From positions 124,001-188,000 of the forward strand of contig CABYPW010000002.1 in assembly GCA_902520885.1 (NCBI GenBank): a stretch of 64,000 nt of DNA, in the 5' to 3' direction. This stretch comes from an uncultured SAR116 cluster alpha proteobacterium (GTDB lineage: Bacteria > Pseudomonadota > Alphaproteobacteria > Puniceispirillales > Puniceispirillaceae). Below are positions 2,692 to 12,284 of the stretch, one piece after another. Position numbers and translations under genes: made by a program. Every line of letters begins with the position of its first letter. Position 1 is the first letter of the stretch. The notes beneath the pieces are model-generated. The model was given only the letters and a program-made list of their open reading frames with translations, was not told where the DNA came from and did no database searches.

Positions 2692-3684
2692 ATGGTTAAT
2701 GATTTTCTTAAAATGGGTCCACATGATGTAGGTGGGGAATCATCGCATCCCATAGATACCCATGACCATAAAATGAGATATTGGGAAAAGTTCTCTAATG
2801 GACTGAGAATGGCGTTAACCTCTACAAAAATAATAACACTAGATGAACTGCGCTTGACCGCTGAGTCTTTTGGTCAAAAATATTTTGAAATGGAATATTT
2901 TCACAGGAATGCTCGTGCCTTGGTTGAAATATGTCGCCAGAGGGAGTTATTTACTGAATCAGAATTTCTGGAAGAATTAAAACGTCAGAAAAAAATATTT
3001 GAAGTACCAATTATTAGCTTACCCAATAAGGAAAAGATCACACATCTTCATAAAGGGGTTGAACATATACACAGCCAATCCGACTTCCAAGAAGATGAAA
3101 CTGGGGAGGGTCCTCCTGAATTTTATTTTGATATGCTTGCAGCCGCATCTATCTTGCAAAGGAAAAATGTTATTTCCGCGCAAGATATCCAATCTAGAAT
3201 AGAAAAATTCGATACAGTGTTTCCGTTTCGCGGAATATCTGTAGTTGCTAGAGCATGGGTTGATCCAAATTTTAGGGAACATTTATTGAATGATGCAAAG
3301 ACTGCGATAAAAGAAATAGGAATTCAACTTGAGTCATTTGCGGAAATTATTTGCTTTGCTCAATCTGATAGTGTTCATCATATAGTAGTTTGCACATTAT
3401 GCTCGTGCTATCCTCGTACACTATTAGGGATGCCTCCAACATGGTATAAATCACGAACTTATAGGTCTAGAGTTGTTCATGAACCGAGAGCAGTTTTAGA
3501 AGAATTTGGAACAAAAATTCCAAATAATAAGGAAGTTAAAGTTCATGACTCAAATGCAGATATGAGATATCTAATACTACCGCAAAGGCCAAAAGGCACA
3601 GAAGGGTGGAATGAAAAGGAGCTAACTCAACTTATTTCACGAGATCATTTAGTAGGTGTCAGGATCCCGGCAGATGTCATATAG
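2692..3684 (+). CDS. Nitrile hydratase: beta N-terminal domain fused to cobalt-type alpha subunit
   Basis: Residues about 8-100 resemble the N-terminal half of the nitrile hydratase beta subunit: MGPHDVGG, then DTHDH, YWEKF and DELR..E. Residues about 118-330 are a full alpha subunit: GISVVARAWVDP, the metal loop VCTLCSC (Cys234, 237, 239), GMPPTWYKS, YRSRVVHEPR and MRYLILPQRP. CTLCSC with Thr is the cobalt type, in which two cysteines are oxidised. Known enzymes keep alpha and beta apart, or have three subunits as in thiocyanate hydrolase. The beta C-terminal half is the next gene, overlapping the end of this one. Expected reaction is nitrile plus water to amide; thiocyanate hydrolysis is an alternative. 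Domain identity is firm, substrate is not. Confidence 0.85.
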   Translation: MVNDFLKMGPHDVGGESSHPIDTHDHKMRYWEKFSNGLRMALTSTKIITLDELRLTAESFGQKYFEMEYFHRNARALVEICRQRELFTESEFLEELKRQKKIFEVPIISLPNKEKITHLHKGVEHIHSQSDFQEDETGEGPPEFYFDMLAAASILQRKNVISAQDIQSRIEKFDTVFPFRGISVVARAWVDPNFREHLLNDAKTAIKEIGIQLESFAEIICFAQSDSVHHIVVCTLCSCYPRTLLGMPPTWYKSRTYRSRVVHEPRAVLEEFGTKIPNNKEVKVHDSNADMRYLILPQRPKGTEGWNEKELTQLISRDHLVGVRIPADVI

Positions 3685-3985
3685 TAATAGCGTTGAACCA
3701 AACCCCAAATTTAAATCAAATGATAAGATTATAATTTCAAAAAGGAGTTCGAGAGGTCATTGCAGAACTCCTGCCTATATTAGGGGAAAAATAGGTCTAA
3801 TAGAACGTCATTGTGGTAATTTCCGAAATCCGGAACAGTTAGCAGAAAATATAAAAAATGCTGAAATTATACCTTTATATAGATGCGTATTTAAACAACA
3901 TCATATTTGGGATAATTATGATGGTCCAAATGCTGATACGCTTGAACTTGAGGTTTATGAGCACTGGATAGAAAAAACTTCTTAA
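3674..3985 (+). CDS. Nitrile hydratase beta subunit C-terminal (SH3-like) domain protein
   Basis: A 103-residue protein matching only the C-terminal half of nitrile hydratase beta, comparable to the small alpha subunit of thiocyanate hydrolase. It shows FKSNDKIII, then GHCRTPAYIRGKIG, NPEQLA, PLYR, IWDNYDGP and a closing EVYEHWIE. The arginine in GHCRTP corresponds to the beta arginine that contacts the oxidised cysteines of the metal site. The ATG at 3674 lies 11 bases inside the end of the upstream gene, giving translational coupling; a GTG at 3656 is less likely. It should complete the active site of the fusion protein. No second copy accompanies the downstream paralogue. Confidence 0.85.
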   Translation: MSYSNSVEPNPKFKSNDKIIISKRSSRGHCRTPAYIRGKIGLIERHCGNFRNPEQLAENIKNAEIIPLYRCVFKQHHIWDNYDGPNADTLELEVYEHWIEKTS

Positions 3986-4001: not shown

Positions 4002-5345
4002 TTAATTTATTGTGCTCACCGGTAGTTTTCCAAAGTAGTTTTTCATTTTATTTTCTATTTCGTTACAATAACTAAGTAATTGTTTATCTTTATTTTGTGG
4101 TCCAATAACTTGTATTCCTATCGGTAGTCCATTAGCTCCCAGAAAATAAGGAAGATTGACGCAGGGTACATACATTAATGTCCATAGATGATTAAAACTA
4201 TATTTTGGGATTTCCATGAGTTCCTTAGGAGCCTCACCAATTGCACTTGGTGAAATAAGAACGTCAATCTCTCTAAAAATTTTTTTGAGAATAGACCTTG
4301 TATATTCAGCTTCTTCTAATGCTTCTTGATAATCTTGAAAGGTAATATCATCTAAGAATTTTATGGCCCATTTAAACCAAGGATTAAATGATTCAAAATG
4401 ATTTCTTATTTCTTGTTTATGTGCAACTCGTAACTCCCAAGAATAAATTACTTGAAAAGAACGTTCCATTACTTTGTCAAATTCAGCTGGAAGAATGATT
4501 TCATCGAAAATACAATCTGTTGCCTTAAGAGATTCAATTGATTTATTAATAGCATTTTTAGTATCTCTACTAGCTGCATGCCAATTTGATGTTTTACAAA
4601 TTCCAATTCTGACCGGCGGCTTTATACTAATAAAATTATTAGAGTTTAAGTCATTCGTAAGAACTTGTCTTAATAACTCTATATCTTCTAAGCACCTTGC
4701 AAAGTGTCCAACCGTATCAATCGAGGGTTTCAAATGCTTAATGCCAGCCCCAGTTATATGTCCAAAACTTCCCTTATAACCAAAAACTCCGCAAAGAGAT
4801 GCAGGTCTTATAATCGAACCACCTGTTTGAGTTCCATTAGAAATTGGAACCATAAAATCAGCAACGCTAGCCGCTGAACCCATAGAAGAAACTCCTGGTG
4901 TGCGGTTAAGAGAATGCGGATTTAAGGTGGGGCCAGGGTAGGGACCTGCAAACTCAGAGGTAACTGTTTTTCCAAGAAATATCACACCAGCATTCCTTAA
5001 AATATTTATCACTTCTGTATCTTCCTGAGGCTGAAATTCTGGATAAATAGATGTTCCGTATTCTGTAGGCATATCTTTGGTATCAAAATTATCTTTAATC
5101 GCCATTGGAATTCCGGATAAAGGTGATAAAGTTTTTACCTGATTTAAATTATCTAGCTGTTGTTCAATTTTACTTTCATTAATGTATGTCCATGCTTTAA
5201 CCTTAGGGTTTCTTAATTTAATTCTTTTTAAACAATCTCTAATAATATCTGAAGGCTGACACTGAGCCTCGAAGAGCAATGATGCCAATTCTGTAGCAGT
5301 AAAGTGATTTAAAGTTCTTTTCAGGTTAGGGGACATATTTAACAA
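4002..5345 (-). CDS. Amidase-signature family amidase
   Basis: A 447-residue amidase-signature hydrolase that would convert an amide to acid and ammonia. The catalytic triad is visible: Lys84 in MAIKDN, cis-Ser153 in GVSSMGSAAS and nucleophile Ser177 in GTQTGGSIIRPAS, 24 residues apart as in the family. The usual GGSSGGS loop is changed to GVSSMGS. Length is normal. It lies between the two nitrile hydratase fusion genes on the opposite strand, the classic nitrile hydratase/amidase pairing, so it may take the product amide. Amidase-signature members also include GatA and other hydrolases, but no GatB or GatC is nearby. An alternative Met is three codons in. Confidence 0.87.
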   Translation of the reverse strand: MLNMSPNLKRTLNHFTATELASLLFEAQCQPSDIIRDCLKRIKLRNPKVKAWTYINESKIEQQLDNLNQVKTLSPLSGIPMAIKDNFDTKDMPTEYGTSIYPEFQPQEDTEVINILRNAGVIFLGKTVTSEFAGPYPGPTLNPHSLNRTPGVSSMGSAASVADFMVPISNGTQTGGSIIRPASLCGVFGYKGSFGHITGAGIKHLKPSIDTVGHFARCLEDIELLRQVLTNDLNSNNFISIKPPVRIGICKTSNWHAASRDTKNAINKSIESLKATDCIFDEIILPAEFDKVMERSFQVIYSWELRVAHKQEIRNHFESFNPWFKWAIKFLDDITFQDYQEALEEAEYTRSILKKIFREIDVLISPSAIGEAPKELMEIPKYSFNHLWTLMYVPCVNLPYFLGANGLPIGIQVIGPQNKDKQLLSYCNEIENKMKNYFGKLPVSTIN

Positions 5346-5452: not shown

Positions 5453-6442
5453 ATGTCGAATAATAAACTAAAAATGGGTCCTCATGATGTTGGTGGAGAA
5501 TTTGATTATAAAATAGATACTCATGACCATGGTATGACTTATTGGGAAAAATTTTCAAATGGCTTGGTCTTATGTGTGCCGGAAACAGGTTTGATAAAAC
5601 TCGACGAGTTAAGAAAAACTGCAGAATCATTCGGTGATAATTATTTTAAAATGGATTATTTTAGGAGAGTTGGATTATCGCTTGTTGAGTTATGTATTCA
5701 AAGAAAAATATTTAATAGGAAGGAATTGGCAAACGAAAAGAAAATTGCCAAAAAAAATTTTAAAGTACCTATTCTTGATCTTCCCGACCCAAAATTGATT
5801 ACACACCTTCATGATGGTATTGAACACAAACATAAACAATCTGACTTTCAGGAGGATGAAAACGGAGAGGGACCTCCAGAATATTATTTTGATATGTTAG
5901 CGACTGCCCAGATACTTCATAGTAAAAATATTATCTCGATAGAGGATATACATAAAAAAATAGATAATTTTGAAAGAACGTACCCAGCAAGAGGGATTTC
6001 AGTTGTAACAAAAGCTTGGACAGATTCTACTTTTAGGGCAGCACTTATAAATGATGCAAAATCAGCAATATATGATATGGGCATTCACCTAGAGTCATTT
6101 GCTGATATTATTTGTTTTGCTCATGATAGTAGAACACACCATGTCGTTGTTTGTACACTATGCTCTTGTTATCCAAGAACATTACTCGGTATGCCTCCTT
6201 CCTGGTATAAATCACGGAGCTACCGGTCACGGGTTGTCCATGAACCTCGAAGGGTTCTTAAAGAATTTGGAACTATTATTCCTGAAAATAAAGAGGTTAA
6301 GGTTCATGACTCTAATGCGGATATGCGCTATTTAGTTTTACCAGAACGGCCTTCGGGAACAGAAAACTGGGATGAGGAAGAATTATCTAAATTAATTTCT
6401 AGAGACCATCTAGTTGGTATAAGAGTGCCAACTTTAAAGTGA
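5453..6442 (+). CDS. Second nitrile hydratase beta-N/alpha fusion protein (paralogue)
   Basis: A 329-residue protein that aligns without any gap to the product of 2692-3684; by hand count about 218 of 329 residues are identical. The same layout is seen: MGPHDVGG and DTHDH in the beta-N part, then DSTFRAALIN, VCTLCSC (Cys234, 237, 239) and WYKSRSYRSR. All metal ligands are kept, so it should be functional. No beta C-terminal gene follows; the next feature is a terminator hairpin and then the convergent MBL operon. It may share the small subunit encoded at 3674-3985. Conservation is highest around the metal loop and lowest around residues 40-105 of the beta-N part. Confidence 0.85.
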   Translation: MSNNKLKMGPHDVGGEFDYKIDTHDHGMTYWEKFSNGLVLCVPETGLIKLDELRKTAESFGDNYFKMDYFRRVGLSLVELCIQRKIFNRKELANEKKIAKKNFKVPILDLPDPKLITHLHDGIEHKHKQSDFQEDENGEGPPEYYFDMLATAQILHSKNIISIEDIHKKIDNFERTYPARGISVVTKAWTDSTFRAALINDAKSAIYDMGIHLESFADIICFAHDSRTHHVVVCTLCSCYPRTLLGMPPSWYKSRSYRSRVVHEPRRVLKEFGTIIPENKEVKVHDSNADMRYLVLPERPSGTENWDEEELSKLISRDHLVGIRVPTLK

Positions 6443-6482: not shown

Positions 6483-6512
6483 GCTAGTTATTGTATTAAC
6501 TAGCTATTTTTT
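6483..6512 (+). terminator. Rho-independent terminator after the second fusion gene
   Basis: Arms GCTAGTTA (6483-6490) and TAACTAGC (6497-6504) form a perfect 8-bp stem with a 6-base loop, followed by TATTTTTT on the plus strand. It begins 41 bp after the stop at 6442. The opposite strand also has a T-rich tail, so it may act in both directions; it overlaps the stop codon of the convergent MBL gene. Confidence 0.65.
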
Positions 6513-7275
6513 CATATGGCCCGTGTAATCCTTCAATTACTTTAGGTATGGTTTCCTCAACATTCATTATTGGTAATCCATGTGTTGGAGCAATGCATTG
6601 TACATTAAGTTCCTTTATAAGCTTTATAAGCCTTTCTGAATATATATTCATGTCTACAAAATTTGTCCAAAACAAAGCAAGTTCTGCAAACACAGAAGTA
6701 ACTTCAAACAGGTTAAGTGATTCTGCTTCTTCTGCAAGTTTTCCACAATGCCCATCCCAATGATAATGGCTGTAGGCAAACCCATCACCAGGAAATAGTA
6801 TTCGTTGTGGGTGAATAAAACCCCATAAAGATGTTCTTATATCTCTTACAACTGGCTCAGCAGCGATAAATTCTATTCTACCCAAATCGATTTTTTCACC
6901 TACCTCCATTGATACAAAATTATCTGTAAACATAGGAAATGCCATATGATAGTCACTAACATCACCAAGAACTTTTACATCAGGATATAAATTAAGGAAA
7001 CGAGCTATACCTCCTGCATGAGGTGTCTCTTGATGGGTAGTAAAAATATATTTTAAGGGAACTTGCTTTTTATCTAGTATTCTTATCATTTGTTCATGAA
7101 GAATGTTAAAATCTTTTGGGTGTCCTGTTTCTACAAGAAGCGCTTTATCGTTCCCTACAACTAAATAAGATGAATTGTATGAATGATATGTTTTCCCTTG
7201 ATAATGCTGTACGAGGCAGTCACCTAACCAAAAAATGTTCTTCAAAATTTCTCGTGGTAATCTATTTTGATGCAT
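6496..7275 (-). CDS. Metallo-beta-lactamase-fold protein with altered metal motif
   Basis: A 259-residue MBL-fold protein. Beta-strand motifs are present (YLVVGNDKALLVETG, YIFTTHQETPHAGG, LFPGDGFA, IAPTHGLP). The usual HxHxDH motif is replaced by H81-x-E83-x-x-H86, which resembles the H-x-E-x-D pattern of flavodiiron proteins but with Pro in place of Asp. The Asp of PGDG and the C-terminal His are kept, so a di-iron or other metal site is possible. It is the last gene of the minus-strand operon, two bases after the preceding MBL gene with a GAGG ribosome site. The reaction is unknown. Confidence 0.75.
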   Translation of the reverse strand: MHQNRLPREILKNIFWLGDCLVQHYQGKTYHSYNSSYLVVGNDKALLVETGHPKDFNILHEQMIRILDKKQVPLKYIFTTHQETPHAGGIARFLNLYPDVKVLGDVSDYHMAFPMFTDNFVSMEVGEKIDLGRIEFIAAEPVVRDIRTSLWGFIHPQRILFPGDGFAYSHYHWDGHCGKLAEEAESLNLFEVTSVFAELALFWTNFVDMNIYSERLIKLIKELNVQCIAPTHGLPIMNVEETIPKVIEGLHGPYEKIAS

Positions 7276-7277
7276 TA

Positions 7278-8153
7278 TTACCTCAAATGATTTCTAGAAA
7301 CATAATATGCTTTAGTATTCGAAACATCAAAATCCGCAAGGATAGCGTCTAACTTAACGAATTGTTTTTCTACCAAATCTTTACCACAAAACAATTTACC
7401 ATAACCAGGCGCTATGGTTTTGATATCATATTTTTCAAATATATGATTTATATTTTTCCGAAGCAAGTTTGTTTTAGCACCTTCTAACCACCAATATCTA
7501 GTATTCAACATAAAAGATTTTATAAACTGGCTTTCACAAAAAAAATCATCTTTTTTTAAAATCCAGGTGTCATTGGGATTTTCAGAGACACCATAAGTAA
7601 ACATGTCAGACGTAAAAAGTGTTTTACTCGTTTTATCATAAACCCATGCTGTATTTATGAGTCTTAAGGGTGCTGACATAATTTCTATAACTCTACCTGT
7701 TTTAAAGCCAATTTCGCATTCAATATGTTTTCCAATGACGTGGGTTGGAATTTTTCTAAGACTATGATCGCGTTCTCTATCTGTGAAATCAAACCAATCT
7801 GGTGCATCAGGTTGTGCGAGATAATAGCTTTGGGTATTAAATTTTTGCGAAATCGATTTAACGTTGCCAACTGTCATAAATTCATTTACGCGAGTAGGGA
7901 GTATAGATAAAGGCGTATCAAAGGAGATAACCCTGGATAACTGATCTAAAATAGAATCCTTATGATAAAGGTATCCTGTATCTATTAAAAACGCTCCTGT
8001 ATCTTCTTTTAAAACATAACAATTTAAAGGTGCAAAACCCGCAAGATTTGGTGGAAAAGCAATTAATCTTCCATCCAACTTAACTATATTTTGAAGAAGA
8101 AATAATTTATCCTTTTCAAGTTCAAAAACTTCTTCATTTTTATTTTTATTCAT
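7278..8153 (-). CDS. Metallo-beta-lactamase-fold protein lacking the canonical histidine motif
   Basis: A 291-residue protein with the MBL scaffold: GAFLIDTGYLYHKD in the N-terminal half, then LPTRVNEFMTVGN where HxHxDH is expected, APLRLINTAWVYDKTSKTLFTSDMF and IAPGYGK. The histidine cluster is replaced by R-x-N-E-F, so a normal dizinc site is unlikely. The segment ending in LFTSDMF is like that of flavodiiron and related MBL proteins. It is the first of a pair of MBL genes and may form a heteromer with the next one; that is inference. Function unknown. Confidence 0.7.
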   Translation of the reverse strand: MNKNKNEEVFELEKDKLFLLQNIVKLDGRLIAFPPNLAGFAPLNCYVLKEDTGAFLIDTGYLYHKDSILDQLSRVISFDTPLSILPTRVNEFMTVGNVKSISQKFNTQSYYLAQPDAPDWFDFTDRERDHSLRKIPTHVIGKHIECEIGFKTGRVIEIMSAPLRLINTAWVYDKTSKTLFTSDMFTYGVSENPNDTWILKKDDFFCESQFIKSFMLNTRYWWLEGAKTNLLRKNINHIFEKYDIKTIAPGYGKLFCGKDLVEKQFVKLDAILADFDVSNTKAYYVSRNHLR

Positions 8154-8995: not shown

Positions 8996-9760
8996 CTAGC
9001 TCTCCTTTAAATTTATGGAATATTTATTGGCAATTGGTTTCAAAATTAAAAAGTCTATAGCCGAAAAAAGTAAAACAATTAAGAGGCAGATTGCCAAGAC
9101 TTTTTCAGAATCTGCATTAGTTTGCGCCTGTTGGAGAAGCCAACCGAGACCAGAACTAGCTCCAAATAATTCAGCTATTATAGCTATTTTCCAGGCAATT
9201 CCATAGGAAATTCTAATTCCAGCGATAATAAAGGGAAGAGCAAGAGGTAAGTCGATTTTGAAAAATGTCAAAACACGATTTCTAGAAAAACTAATACCCA
9301 TCTCTTTGATTTCTTTATCAACTTGGCGAAACCCTTGAATACAATTAATCAGACAAAAGGGTATTATTATCATTATTTCGACAAAAATAACCGTAATATC
9401 TGAAATAGAAAACCATATAACCCCTAAAATTGCCCAGCCTATAGAAGGAAAACTATTTAAAACAATCAATATGTTGTTTTCTATAATTATAGTAAAAACA
9501 TAGTTTGTCCTTGATAAAATTGCCAAAGAAATTGAAACCATAGCCGCAAAAATTAAAGCGCCCGTTACCCTAAACATACTGATAGCTATGTGTTGGAAAC
9601 TCTCCAGAGTTACAGCTAACTGAAATAAGGCCTCCAACACCTCTAAAGGCTCAGGCAAAATAAAATCTGGTATATCCTTGGCAATAAACCACCAAAAAAT
9701 ACAAAAAGTTATGATAAATATTTCCGATATCGGATTCACAATTTTTAATGAATTAATCAC
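8996..9760 (-). CDS. ABC transporter permease, SsuC/TauC type
   Basis: A 254-residue inner-membrane permease of the nitrate/sulfonate/taurine importer class with about six membrane segments. The cytoplasmic coupling loop is visible in EMGISFSRNRVLTFFKIDLP, followed by LPFIIAGIRISYGIAWK. The N-terminal half has the EPLEVLEALFQL stretch common to SsuC-like proteins. Its start overlaps the end of the first permease by 8 bp, so the two are probably made as a heterodimer. Substrate unknown. Confidence 0.88.
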   Translation of the reverse strand: MINSLKIVNPISEIFIITFCIFWWFIAKDIPDFILPEPLEVLEALFQLAVTLESFQHIAISMFRVTGALIFAAMVSISLAILSRTNYVFTIIIENNILIVLNSFPSIGWAILGVIWFSISDITVIFVEIMIIIPFCLINCIQGFRQVDKEIKEMGISFSRNRVLTFFKIDLPLALPFIIAGIRISYGIAWKIAIIAELFGASSGLGWLLQQAQTNADSEKVLAICLLIVLLFSAIDFLILKPIANKYSINLKES

Positions 9761-10520
9761 GAATATATCTTTTATCTAAGTGTCTTTGTATTGGCGAAAA
9801 AAACAAAATTTCTGCTATTATTACAAAGGTAATAATGAATGCTATAACTGCAAAAATCATCTCAGTTTCAAATTCTTGTCTAGATTTGTTGAGGATGTAC
9901 CCCATTCCTCCAGCACCGCCAAATAATTCTGCTGTCAAAACAACTTTCCAACTTACTCCAAAGCTTGTTCTAAGAGTTGCAAAGGCATAGGGAAATAGCA
10001 TTGGAGCTTTTAAGCTTAATAATAATTTTTTTGTGGTCCTTGTGAGACTTTTTCCAAGTTCTAAAATCTCTGTATCCATCTCCAATATTCCAGTCCTAAG
10101 ATTAATAATTGCAAATGGAATCAAAACCATTGTAACCGCAAAAATTACAGTAAATGAATTTATTCCAAACCATAATATTGCGATAAATAACCAGCCAACA
10201 CCGGAAAATGAATTTAGAAAAGGTGTAAGTCTATGGTCAATAAAAAACTCAAAATGTGCATTATACAATGGTAGAACAGAGAAGAAAGTACCAACACAAA
10301 AAGCAATAAAAATCGAAGCTATAATATGAAAAAGAGATAATCCAATTTGTTGTATCAAGTCTAAATCTAAAACTATGTTCAACATAGCTGTTGCAACCAT
10401 CATTGGTGAAGGCAATTGATATGAAGGCATGAAGTCTGAATATATGTGCCAGACTATTATCAGAAAAGCCCAGAAAACTATCGAAACAAAAAGTTTAAGA
10501 TTGTTTAAAATGATCTTCAT
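9753..10520 (-). CDS. ABC transporter permease, SsuC/TauC type
   Basis: A 255-residue integral membrane protein, the first of two tandem permeases. It shows SYQLPSPMMVATAML near the N-terminus and the coupling motif ELGKSLTRTTKKLLLSLKAP followed by FATLRTSFGVSWKVV, as in SsuC and TauC. About six hydrophobic segments are visible. It follows the binding-protein gene by 30 bp and overlaps the second permease. Most importers of this class use one permease gene as a homodimer; having two different ones is less common. Confidence 0.88.
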   Translation of the reverse strand: MKIILNNLKLFVSIVFWAFLIIVWHIYSDFMPSYQLPSPMMVATAMLNIVLDLDLIQQIGLSLFHIIASIFIAFCVGTFFSVLPLYNAHFEFFIDHRLTPFLNSFSGVGWLFIAILWFGINSFTVIFAVTMVLIPFAIINLRTGILEMDTEILELGKSLTRTTKKLLLSLKAPMLFPYAFATLRTSFGVSWKVVLTAELFGGAGGMGYILNKSRQEFETEMIFAVIAFIITFVIIAEILFFSPIQRHLDKRYIRD

Positions 10521-10550
10521 TTCAATTTAATTTTCTGGGTTTTTTTGTAT

Positions 10551-11528
10551 TTAGTCCACAATAATAGTTTCAGTCCAAATAGTATCTCGGACATTTGGAG
10601 CAGATTTGAGCATTCCAAGCTTTACTGACTCATCCCATAACATTTGTATCGCTTTCATATCATCGTTGCTCATTAAAACTGGAAAGTCACTATACTCAGC
10701 GAACCAACGTTGAAGAAATTTTTCATCAGTATCATTTTCTTTTGCTACAGCTTTAAAAACTTCGTCAGGGTTTGATTTTGCGTATTCTACGGATTGATGA
10801 AGTAAACGGAGAAATTCTTTGTGTATTTCTGGATTTTTATCTAATTTTTCACCATAACCTGCAAGAACAGCTGAGACACCTCTTACACCAAAACTTTTAT
10901 AATTATCTGGAGCAGTCGAGACAATTGAACGAAATGATTTAGTGTTTTGCGCCTGATAAGCTTGCGAATGAATTAGTGTGGCGGCATCAATGGTACCAGA
11001 CTCTAAAGCTGCTGGCATAGCTGGAGGAGGCATTTCAACAAACTCGATATCTCCACTTTCTAAATCCACATTAAATCCATGTGCATTCGCAAGGGCTATT
11101 CTGATTAGAGTGATTCCAGAAGAACCAAGAGAATAAACTGCTAATTTTTTACCTTTTAAATCAGCTGCAGATTGCAGTACACTATCACTTTTAACCCAAA
11201 TATCTGAACCTTCACCTCCTGTATGATACCGAAGCGCAGTTCCCACAATTCTTAGGTCTAACCCTTTTGAGCGTGCCCTTGGAATAGCCATTCCAGCTGT
11301 CTGAATCACGTCATAAGTTTTTGATACAGTGGCTTGAATGAGCGCTGGAATTTGAAGCGGGTCCGCTTTCACTTCAATAATATCTGAAGTGACCTTGCCA
11401 TTTTTTAATGCCCACATAACAGCTTCATGACTTGGGTCAGCTAAATACCCAAACTTTATCAATTCCTTCGCCATTAAAGATGGACTAAGAATAATAAAAA
11501 ACGAGAATGCTATAAATATTCTTTTCAT
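10551..11528 (-). CDS. ABC transporter periplasmic binding protein, NMT1/SsuA type
   Basis: A 325-residue secreted binding protein. The signal peptide is residues 1-20 (KRIFIAFSFFIILSPSLMA, cut before KELIKFGY). The mature part follows the NMT1/SsuA plan: DVIQTAGMAIPRARSKGLDL, DLKGKKLAVYSLGSSG, PPAMPAALESGTIDAATL. The ATG directly follows the ATPase stop with an AAAGG ribosome site. Relatives bind sulfonates, taurine, nitrate, pyrimidines or aromatic acids; the sequence does not tell which. The neighbouring hydrolases and nitrile hydratase suggest an organic nitrogen compound, which is inference. Confidence 0.85.
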   Translation of the reverse strand: MKRIFIAFSFFIILSPSLMAKELIKFGYLADPSHEAVMWALKNGKVTSDIIEVKADPLQIPALIQATVSKTYDVIQTAGMAIPRARSKGLDLRIVGTALRYHTGGEGSDIWVKSDSVLQSAADLKGKKLAVYSLGSSGITLIRIALANAHGFNVDLESGDIEFVEMPPPAMPAALESGTIDAATLIHSQAYQAQNTKSFRSIVSTAPDNYKSFGVRGVSAVLAGYGEKLDKNPEIHKEFLRLLHQSVEYAKSNPDEVFKAVAKENDTDEKFLQRWFAEYSDFPVLMSNDDMKAIQMLWDESVKLGMLKSAPNVRDTIWTETIIVD

Positions 11529-12284
11529 TTAATTCACCTTTGTTTTTGCTAAATTTTCAAATACTAATTTTAATTCTTTTTTAATATTACGCAATTCGTC
11601 AGATATATCTACATCTCTTGGCCTTTTTTCAAAAGGATTTATTATTTTTTCAACTTTTGAAGGGCGCGTACCCAATACTATAATCCTATCTCCTAGTTCT
11701 AGGGCCTCATCGATATCATGTGTAACAAATATGATGGTCATTCCAATGTCCTGCCAAAGTTGTACAAGTTGAGAACGCAGTATTCTCCTTGTATTTGGGT
11801 CTAAAGCTGAGAATGGCTCATCCATAAGAATTATCTCAGGCTCAAGAGAAAGTGCTCGTGCAAGTGATACACGTTGTCTTTCGCCGCCAGATAACATTAA
11901 AGGCATCTTATTAATATCGCTCCCAAGTCCAACTTTTGTTAATTGTTTAAGCGCAATTTCATTTCGAATTTCTTTGCTCATATCAGGATGCCTCATTTCC
12001 AAACCAAATGCTGCATTATCAAGTGTGTTTTTCCAAGGCAATAGTCTTGGATTTTGGAAAACATAAGCCATTTGGTCCCAACATTCAGTGGGGGACTTTC
12101 CTGCGATTGTTATCTTTCCTGAATAATCTCTTAATAAATCTCCAATGAGCCTAAGAGTAGTAGATTTTCCGCATCCTGAAGGCCCCAAAATACAGAAAAA
12201 TTCTCCCCGGTTTATTGAGAAACTCAAATCTTCAATAATACGTGTATCGCCAAATTTTAGTCCAACATTGTTAAATTCAATCAT
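11529..12284 (-). CDS. ABC transporter ATP-binding protein, SsuB/TauB type
   Basis: A 251-residue ATPase. Walker A GPSGCGKST near residues 34-42, Q-loop VFQNPRLLPW, signature LSGGERQR, Walker B IILMDEPFSALD and switch His in FVTHDIDEA are all intact. PRLLPW after the Q-loop is typical of the nitrate/sulfonate/taurine importer family. It is the first gene of the minus-strand operon ATPase, binding protein, permease, permease, hydrolase, MBL, MBL, with no internal gap above about 40 bp. Confidence 0.92.
   Translation of the reverse strand: MIEFNNVGLKFGDTRIIEDLSFSINRGEFFCILGPSGCGKSTTLRLIGDLLRDYSGKITIAGKSPTECWDQMAYVFQNPRLLPWKNTLDNAAFGLEMRHPDMSKEIRNEIALKQLTKVGLGSDINKMPLMLSGGERQRVSLARALSLEPEIILMDEPFSALDPNTRRILRSQLVQLWQDIGMTIIFVTHDIDEALELGDRIIVLGTRPSKVEKIINPFEKRPRDVDISDELRNIKKELKLVFENLAKTKVN

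Follow-up and report, generated by a model that had tools for sequence, protein, structure and literature searches.

The locus and its genes

The window, by which we mean the whole 64,000-nucleotide stretch of DNA that was analysed, carries two genes in which the N-terminal domain of a nitrile hydratase (NHase) β subunit (βN) is joined to an NHase α subunit, together with one separate gene for the β-subunit C-terminal domain (βC) and an amidase. The features are as follows.

2692–3684, + strand: fusion gene 1, 330 amino acids, NHase βN, linker and NHase α (PF21006 and PF02979 in one frame)
2716–2988, + strand: βN domain of fusion 1, residues 9–99 (PF21006, E = 1.5e-7)
2851–2853, + strand: R54 of fusion 1, the Arg52 equivalent (arginine alignment column)
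2989–3138, + strand: linker of fusion 1, residues 100–149, conserved core 116–142 (comparison with three-gene relatives; low pLDDT)
3139–3660, + strand: α domain of fusion 1, residues 150–323 (PF02979, NHase_alpha, E = 9.7e-71)
3391–3408, + strand: claw CTLCSC of fusion 1 (α alignment)
3674–3985, + strand: βC subunit gene, 103 amino acids from the ATG at 3674 (PF02211, NHase_beta_C, E = 6.8e-17)
3764–3766, + strand: R31 of βC, the Arg157 equivalent (arginine alignment column)
4002–5345, − strand: amidase, between the two fusions (PF01425, E = 5.2e-69)
5453–6442, + strand: fusion gene 2, 329 amino acids, βN and α, without a βC of its own (PF21006, E = 2.5e-7; PF02979, E = 4.5e-67)

Fusion gene 1 is one uninterrupted open reading frame of 330 codons, with zero stops and zero frameshifts. 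In the Pfam search its NHase_beta_N match scores 32 bits against a cut-off of 21.5, and the VCTLCSC claw occupies residues 233–239. The βC gene starts at 3674, ahead of the fusion 1 stop codon at 3682–3684. The resulting overlap of 11 nucleotides, which may couple translation of the two genes, is kept at the same length in the related clusters L004, L005 and L006 and is a 4-nucleotide ATGA in L007. The first-pass annotation had proposed that βN is fused to α with βC as the next gene; the three Pfam matches, that to βN at residues 9–99 among them, and the overlap bear this out. Membership of the NHase/thiocyanate hydrolase superfamily is indicated on the α side by the PF02979 domain with its Cys-Thr-Leu-Cys-Ser-Cys claw, and on the β side by the N- and C-terminal domains with their Arg52 and Arg157 equivalents.

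For comparison we sorted 103 loci by gene layout into 63 canonical α–β loci, 31 three-gene loci (βN–βC–α), seven fusion loci and two others. The layouts were assigned with profiles built up from the window's own domains across these very loci, hits below 35 bits being dropped, and the 63 canonical loci represent 59 distinct ones (L103–L106 repeat L039, L035, L042 and L040). The claw reads CTLCSC in all 107 α rows, the 11 fusion rows included, and we take this to be the cobalt-type signature; on its sequence, the fusion enzyme is probably of cobalt type. The Arg52 equivalent is present in 11/11 fusion, 31/31 three-gene and 63/63 canonical β rows and in none of 62 activator rows, the latter being βN-like genes of canonical loci that were not each scored against the activator profile TIGR03889. 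The Arg157 equivalent is equally constant (5/5 fusion-linked, 31/31 three-gene and 63/63 canonical βC rows). These two β arginines have been described as binding the oxidised claw cysteines (PMC7193024). A D-x-G-G motif is found in ten of the 11 fusion βN rows, the exception being a truncated sequence (L008).

By eye, the first part of the linker resembles a βN tail (..RFNVPDEMES..) and the second part the His/Asp-rich α N-terminus of three-gene enzymes, ending GPPGEYEIM. Across nine fusions, 15 of 27 columns of the linker core (116–142) are invariant, as are 34 of 92 in βN and 108 of 177 in α, and the invariant linker residues include the histidines and acids H118, H120, E124, H127 and D131. 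The predicted structure of fusion 1, made from an alignment (A3) of 30 rows of fusions and α only, has a mean pLDDT of 83.3 and a pTM of 0.78; confidence is good for about residues 21–100 and for α, and low across the linker. The α part of the model fits NHase α chains with Z of about 25, while βN fits β chains weakly (Z of at most 6.9).

The C-terminal half of βN also resembles the N-terminal helices of α (βN and α of L013; α of L127–L129 and L131–L134), as if the two shared an old helical hairpin. Matches of the βN profile to α N-termini are weak (17–20 bits), and a mixed βN/α alignment (A2, MAFFT), which set the βN rows on the α N-terminus, was left unused.

Fusion 2, which was absent from the first-pass annotation, is 67% identical to fusion 1 over the match. 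The window's genome (2.17 Mb, 95% complete) gives two α, two βN and one βC match, all within this cluster. The amidase lies between the fusions in all four clusters that hold both (window, L004, L005 and L006) and beside fusion 2 in L116; it likely takes the next step, from amide to acid and ammonia. Further neighbours are a GntR regulator, hydrolases and an ABC uptake system with an NMT1-like binding protein, most of which are shared by L117 and L118. Taken with the amidase, they suggest that a nitrile is taken up and hydrolysed step by step.

The ABC operon (8996–12284; two permeases, the NMT1-like binding protein and an ATPase) adjoins the cluster, as does a tandem pair of metallo-β-lactamase-fold proteins of the ODP family (6496–8153), next to fusion 2 and kept in relatives. 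A terminator-like hairpin with a T-run lies at 6483–6504, between fusion 2 and the convergent metallo-β-lactamase-fold gene. A terminator scan of the region returned seven sites, some overlapping, against 1.7 (s.d. 1.4) expected, with one about 40 bases past the fusion 2 stop; a promoter scan returned 19 sites against 19.9 expected, no excess over chance.

Recurrence and ancestry of the fusion

The order fusion 1, βC, amidase (reverse) and fusion 2 recurs in full in three further genomes of the window's genus (L004, L005 and L006). These are Alphaproteobacteria records, of which two carry the name SAR116. In L116 the contig runs out after fusion 2 and the amidase, and L007, a gammaproteobacterial record (TMED78), holds a fusion and βC only. 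That the fusion is an assembly or frameshift artefact, a case in which the first-pass annotation would have had to be withdrawn, has next to no likelihood and was rejected, since the same open, in-frame join stands in the separate assemblies of the window, L004, L005, L006, L007 and L116; L008 does look broken or chimeric, but nothing of the kind applies to fusion 1. In L008 (3860–4100) a fusion 2 with a truncated start abuts an unrelated, efflux-pump-like transporter gene; its isolate name is of single-cell style and it may be an amplification chimera.

The distinct fusion genomes number seven (G000, the window's own, and G098, G101, G103, G104, G105 and G535); three more (G533, G534 and G552) have the same coordinates as G103, G104 and G098, appear identical to them and were counted once. 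Within the window's genus, fusions occur in six of ten genomes, one of them truncated. An NHase α match was found in 82 of the 136 genomes of the order. The order outside the genus accounts for 76 of these; the layout was read in 33, with 43 unread, and was canonical in 33/33. A sample of the phylum gave matches in 58 of 398 genomes, with a fusion, judged by match span, only in the window's own, and in the order of the gammaproteobacterial fusion genome 36 of 196 genomes matched, one with a fusion.

Comparison of the window with L004 and L005 (NG86) gave dN/dS of about 0.13 for both fusions and 0.09–0.14 for βC, and all three genes look to be under purifying selection. The comparison with L006 (dN 0.09–0.13, dS 1.0–2.1) is near saturation and was left out of this result.

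The α trees took in 21 of the 63 canonical α rows. A 65-row tree groups the 11 fusion rows in a single clade (100/100) within the three-gene group, and this clade joins 24 betaproteobacterial-type rows (22 three-gene, L009 and L017) at 99/98. Addition of six thiocyanate hydrolases and eight three-gene rows (79 rows) left the fusion clade at 100/100 and the join at 99/91; the thiocyanate hydrolases were placed in the wider three-gene group, close to that join but not within it (93/85). The branch leading to the fusions is long (1.63 in the 65-row tree), so their exact placement is less sure than their monophyly. Fusions 1 and 2 arose by duplication within the genus, with clades supported at 97/92 and 100/98, respectively, in the 65-row tree. 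Since the fusions nest among three-gene enzymes, we read the trees as placing the division of β first and the joining of βN to α second.

In a betaproteobacterium (L009, 3965–4927) only one stop codon separates the adjacent βN and α, which are in the same frame, and the fetched stretch contains no βC; a complete three-gene set is present on another stretch of that genome (L107). We read this arrangement as a parallel step toward the βN–α layout. A gene of about 390 amino acids follows the three-gene NHase in ten loci (L013, 5525–6688; homologues in L011, L012, L014, L019 and L023–L027). Neither of the two copies scanned with Pfam (L013 and L027) gave a match, and that of L013 had no PDB sequence match.

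Assembly, metal loading and reaction

Our preferred reading, which we consider reasonably probable, is an enzyme of the NHase/thiocyanate hydrolase superfamily that derives from the three-gene form, in which two βN–α fusions share a separate βC and the metal is loaded directly. From a three-gene ancestor with βN, βC and α, βN would have fused to α and βC would have been left separate. Each fused chain would supply the metal claw and R54, and βC would complete the active site with R31. The two fused chains, as isoenzymes differing at a likely pocket position, would probably share the single βC, and the amide product would pass to the neighbouring amidase. Because α is tied to βN, α-subunit swapping in its known form should be impossible; the metal is probably loaded directly, before βC closes the site, with the fused domain chiefly structural. 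We infer in this way the composition of the complex, the sharing of βC, the metal and its order of loading, and the reaction.

One part of this scheme that may be doubted concerns fusion 2, which has no adjoining βC in a genome with a single βC match. It might instead be a solo enzyme, a regulator or a decoy, or be drifting after duplication, which we regard as a minority possibility. Of the positions kept throughout the three-gene rows and L007, eight are changed only in fusion 2 (six in α and two in βN, several of them mildly) and one only in fusion 1, so fusion 2 has drifted further. The L009 arrangement, with βN and α adjacent and the full three-gene set elsewhere in the genome, offers a parallel, and solo-subunit NHases are mentioned in a review (PMC7193024). 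Against this, fusion 2 is intact in the window, L004, L005, L006 and L116, it keeps the claw and the Arg52 equivalent, and its dN/dS against L004 and L005 is that given above. Variation among the four genomes of the genus is similar for the two genes, at 32 (fusion 1) and 33 (fusion 2) of 187 α columns.

The pocket position in question is residue 39 of the fusions, which we take to correspond to β37. It is Arg in fusion 1 and L007 (5/5), as in 22/22 betaproteobacterial-type three-gene rows and in one of nine other three-gene rows, and Val in all five intact fusion 2 rows (Ala in the truncated L008). Mutants at β37 have been described as altering selectivity in other NHases (PMC7193024). The difference at this position suggests that fusions 1 and 2 may be isoenzymes of different substrate range.

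The first-pass annotation saw no activator gene, and by the TIGR03889 and PF21006 searches this holds throughout the genome: TIGR03889 has no match at E ≤ 0.1 in the window's genome, the fused N-terminal domain included. Nor does it match at that threshold in any of the seven distinct fusion genomes, two of which are quite incomplete (G101, 61% complete with a truncated fusion only, and G105, 73%; for G535 and the betaproteobacterial genomes considered below a completeness figure is lacking). Of nine genomes that belong to the order but not to the genus and contain a stand-alone α frame, eight pass its cut-off; the layout of the ninth (G078) is unread. A search for the cobW family gave four matches in the window's genome but also hit 13 of 14 control genomes, and so does not discriminate. 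A divergent activator, or one of these four, could serve the fusion enzyme.

Absence of an activator is common among unfused relatives. Ten of the 14 betaproteobacterial-type three-gene genomes (one titled Chitinophaga) have none over the TIGR03889 cut-off, two of the ten giving weak partial matches (G542, E = 0.014; G549, E = 0.07); the other four (G541, G545, G548 and G550) pass, with the activator beside a canonical operon. Of three alphaproteobacterial three-gene genomes examined, two pass (G151 and G274) and one, G415, does not; the activator of G274 is again beside a canonical operon. The fusion thus did not simply replace the activator; its loss is probably older than the fusion and, as far as this distribution tells, probably took place in the branch that gave rise to it.

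Two alternatives give the fused chain a part in its own maturation. In one, which we think unlikely, the enzyme would be a self-maturing, mix-and-match system: the fusion would be a permanently docked equivalent of an activator–α intermediate, taking cobalt via the His/acid linker, and would be activated by one βC shared by two chains of different substrate range. In the other, proposed in the first-pass annotation and in our judgement less likely still, the fused βN is a built-in metallochaperone that loads cobalt into its own α domain in place of the activator. The lack of an activator match in all seven fusion genomes and the invariant His and acid residues of the linker agree with such a role, and activators have been noted to resemble the β subunit (PMC4709657). 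The proposal is weakened by the structural marks of βN in the fused domain, its Arg52 equivalent included, and by the ten genomes above, which have no activator over the cut-off although their three-gene loci are unfused. When the whole β subunit of a Pseudomonas NHase was fused to α by engineering, the separate activator was still required (PMC4709657), and the His linker of the Monosiga enzyme is described as dispensable for metal incorporation (PMC7193024). We also rejected descent of the fused domain from an activator, given the Arg52 equivalent that it keeps and that 62/62 activator rows lack. On residue conservation the domain is best regarded as a structural βN, not an activator, although it or the His/acid linker may have a role in metal loading.

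The reaction can be approached through the residue after CSCYP. Every one of the 44 fusion, three-gene and other rows has Arg here, whereas the 63 canonical rows have Trp, Phe or His, with Trp in most. Because it is Arg and not Trp, the reaction may differ from ordinary nitrile hydration. The same Arg (R136 of thiocyanate hydrolase) is found in 6/6 reference thiocyanate hydrolases as in 11/11 fusion rows, and the titles of two PDB entries describe mutants that swap this residue (3vyg, R136W; 3vyh, αW116R). One could therefore take the enzyme for a thiocyanate hydrolase, converting SCN− to COS and ammonia, with its β and γ subunits fused. The placement of thiocyanate hydrolases inside the same three-gene group of the 79-row tree would fit, but we see little prospect of this being correct. 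The Arg also occurs in the 31 three-gene rows and so is not specific to thiocyanate hydrolase. The γ-subunit profile TIGR03887 (cut-off 291.45) gives fusion 1 only 178.4 bits and fusion 2 163.6; the fusions join betaproteobacterial three-gene enzymes, of which L013 passes the NHase α cut-off; and an amidase is not needed for thiocyanate hydrolysis. A strict thiocyanate hydrolase was rejected on profile score and tree placement. The fusions also fall below the NHase α equivalog profile TIGR01323 (cut-off 249.85), with 231.8 bits for fusion 1, 221.4 for fusion 2 and 221.7 for the L007 fusion, whereas the unfused relatives L009, L013, L067 and L069 reach it.

Relation to known enzymes

The nearest relatives of the fusions in the 79-row α tree (99/91) are the betaproteobacterial three-gene NHase-like enzymes (22 loci among L010–L032), which share the domains, the claw, the arginines and the Arg after CSCYP; they differ in having separate genes in the order βN–βC–α where the fusions have βN–α and then βC. 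Three-subunit thiocyanate hydrolase likewise has β in two parts, the same Arg and a place within the three-gene group, but it is unfused, and the fusions miss its γ cut-off. It has a known activator, P15K (PMC3511329). Canonical cobalt-type NHases, as in other genomes of the order, share the superfamily, the claw and the β arginines, but their β is undivided and their α free, and an activator-like gene accompanies them in 62 of 63 loci (59 distinct).

The first-pass annotation named α plus β and three separate subunits as the known layouts; the list is incomplete, as full β–α fusions are known in eukaryotes (PMC2603476, PMC3323583). The enzymes of Monosiga brevicollis and others also have the β part upstream of α and a His-containing linker, and accounts of them describe their activator as undiscovered (PMC2603476, PMC3323583, PMC7193024). 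They carry the whole of β in the chain, whereas here only the N-terminal domain is fused and PF02211 lies in a separate gene. The six gene layouts set out in a 2020 review omit a βN–α fusion with separate βC (PMC7193024), and a 2012 survey reports that fused NHase genes were absent from the prokaryotic data (PMC3323583). The literature that we searched on NHase yielded no bacterial βN–α fusion, and nothing on nitrile hydratase with SAR116.

Cobalt-type NHases are thought to gain their metal by exchange of α with an activator complex. With α locked to βN and no recognisable activator, the cluster makes the need for α swapping and for an activator directly testable, and the unfused relatives, often without an activator too, add to the same test of activator need. 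The fusions are also a clear case of a subunit that was split and of which one half was then fused to a different partner.
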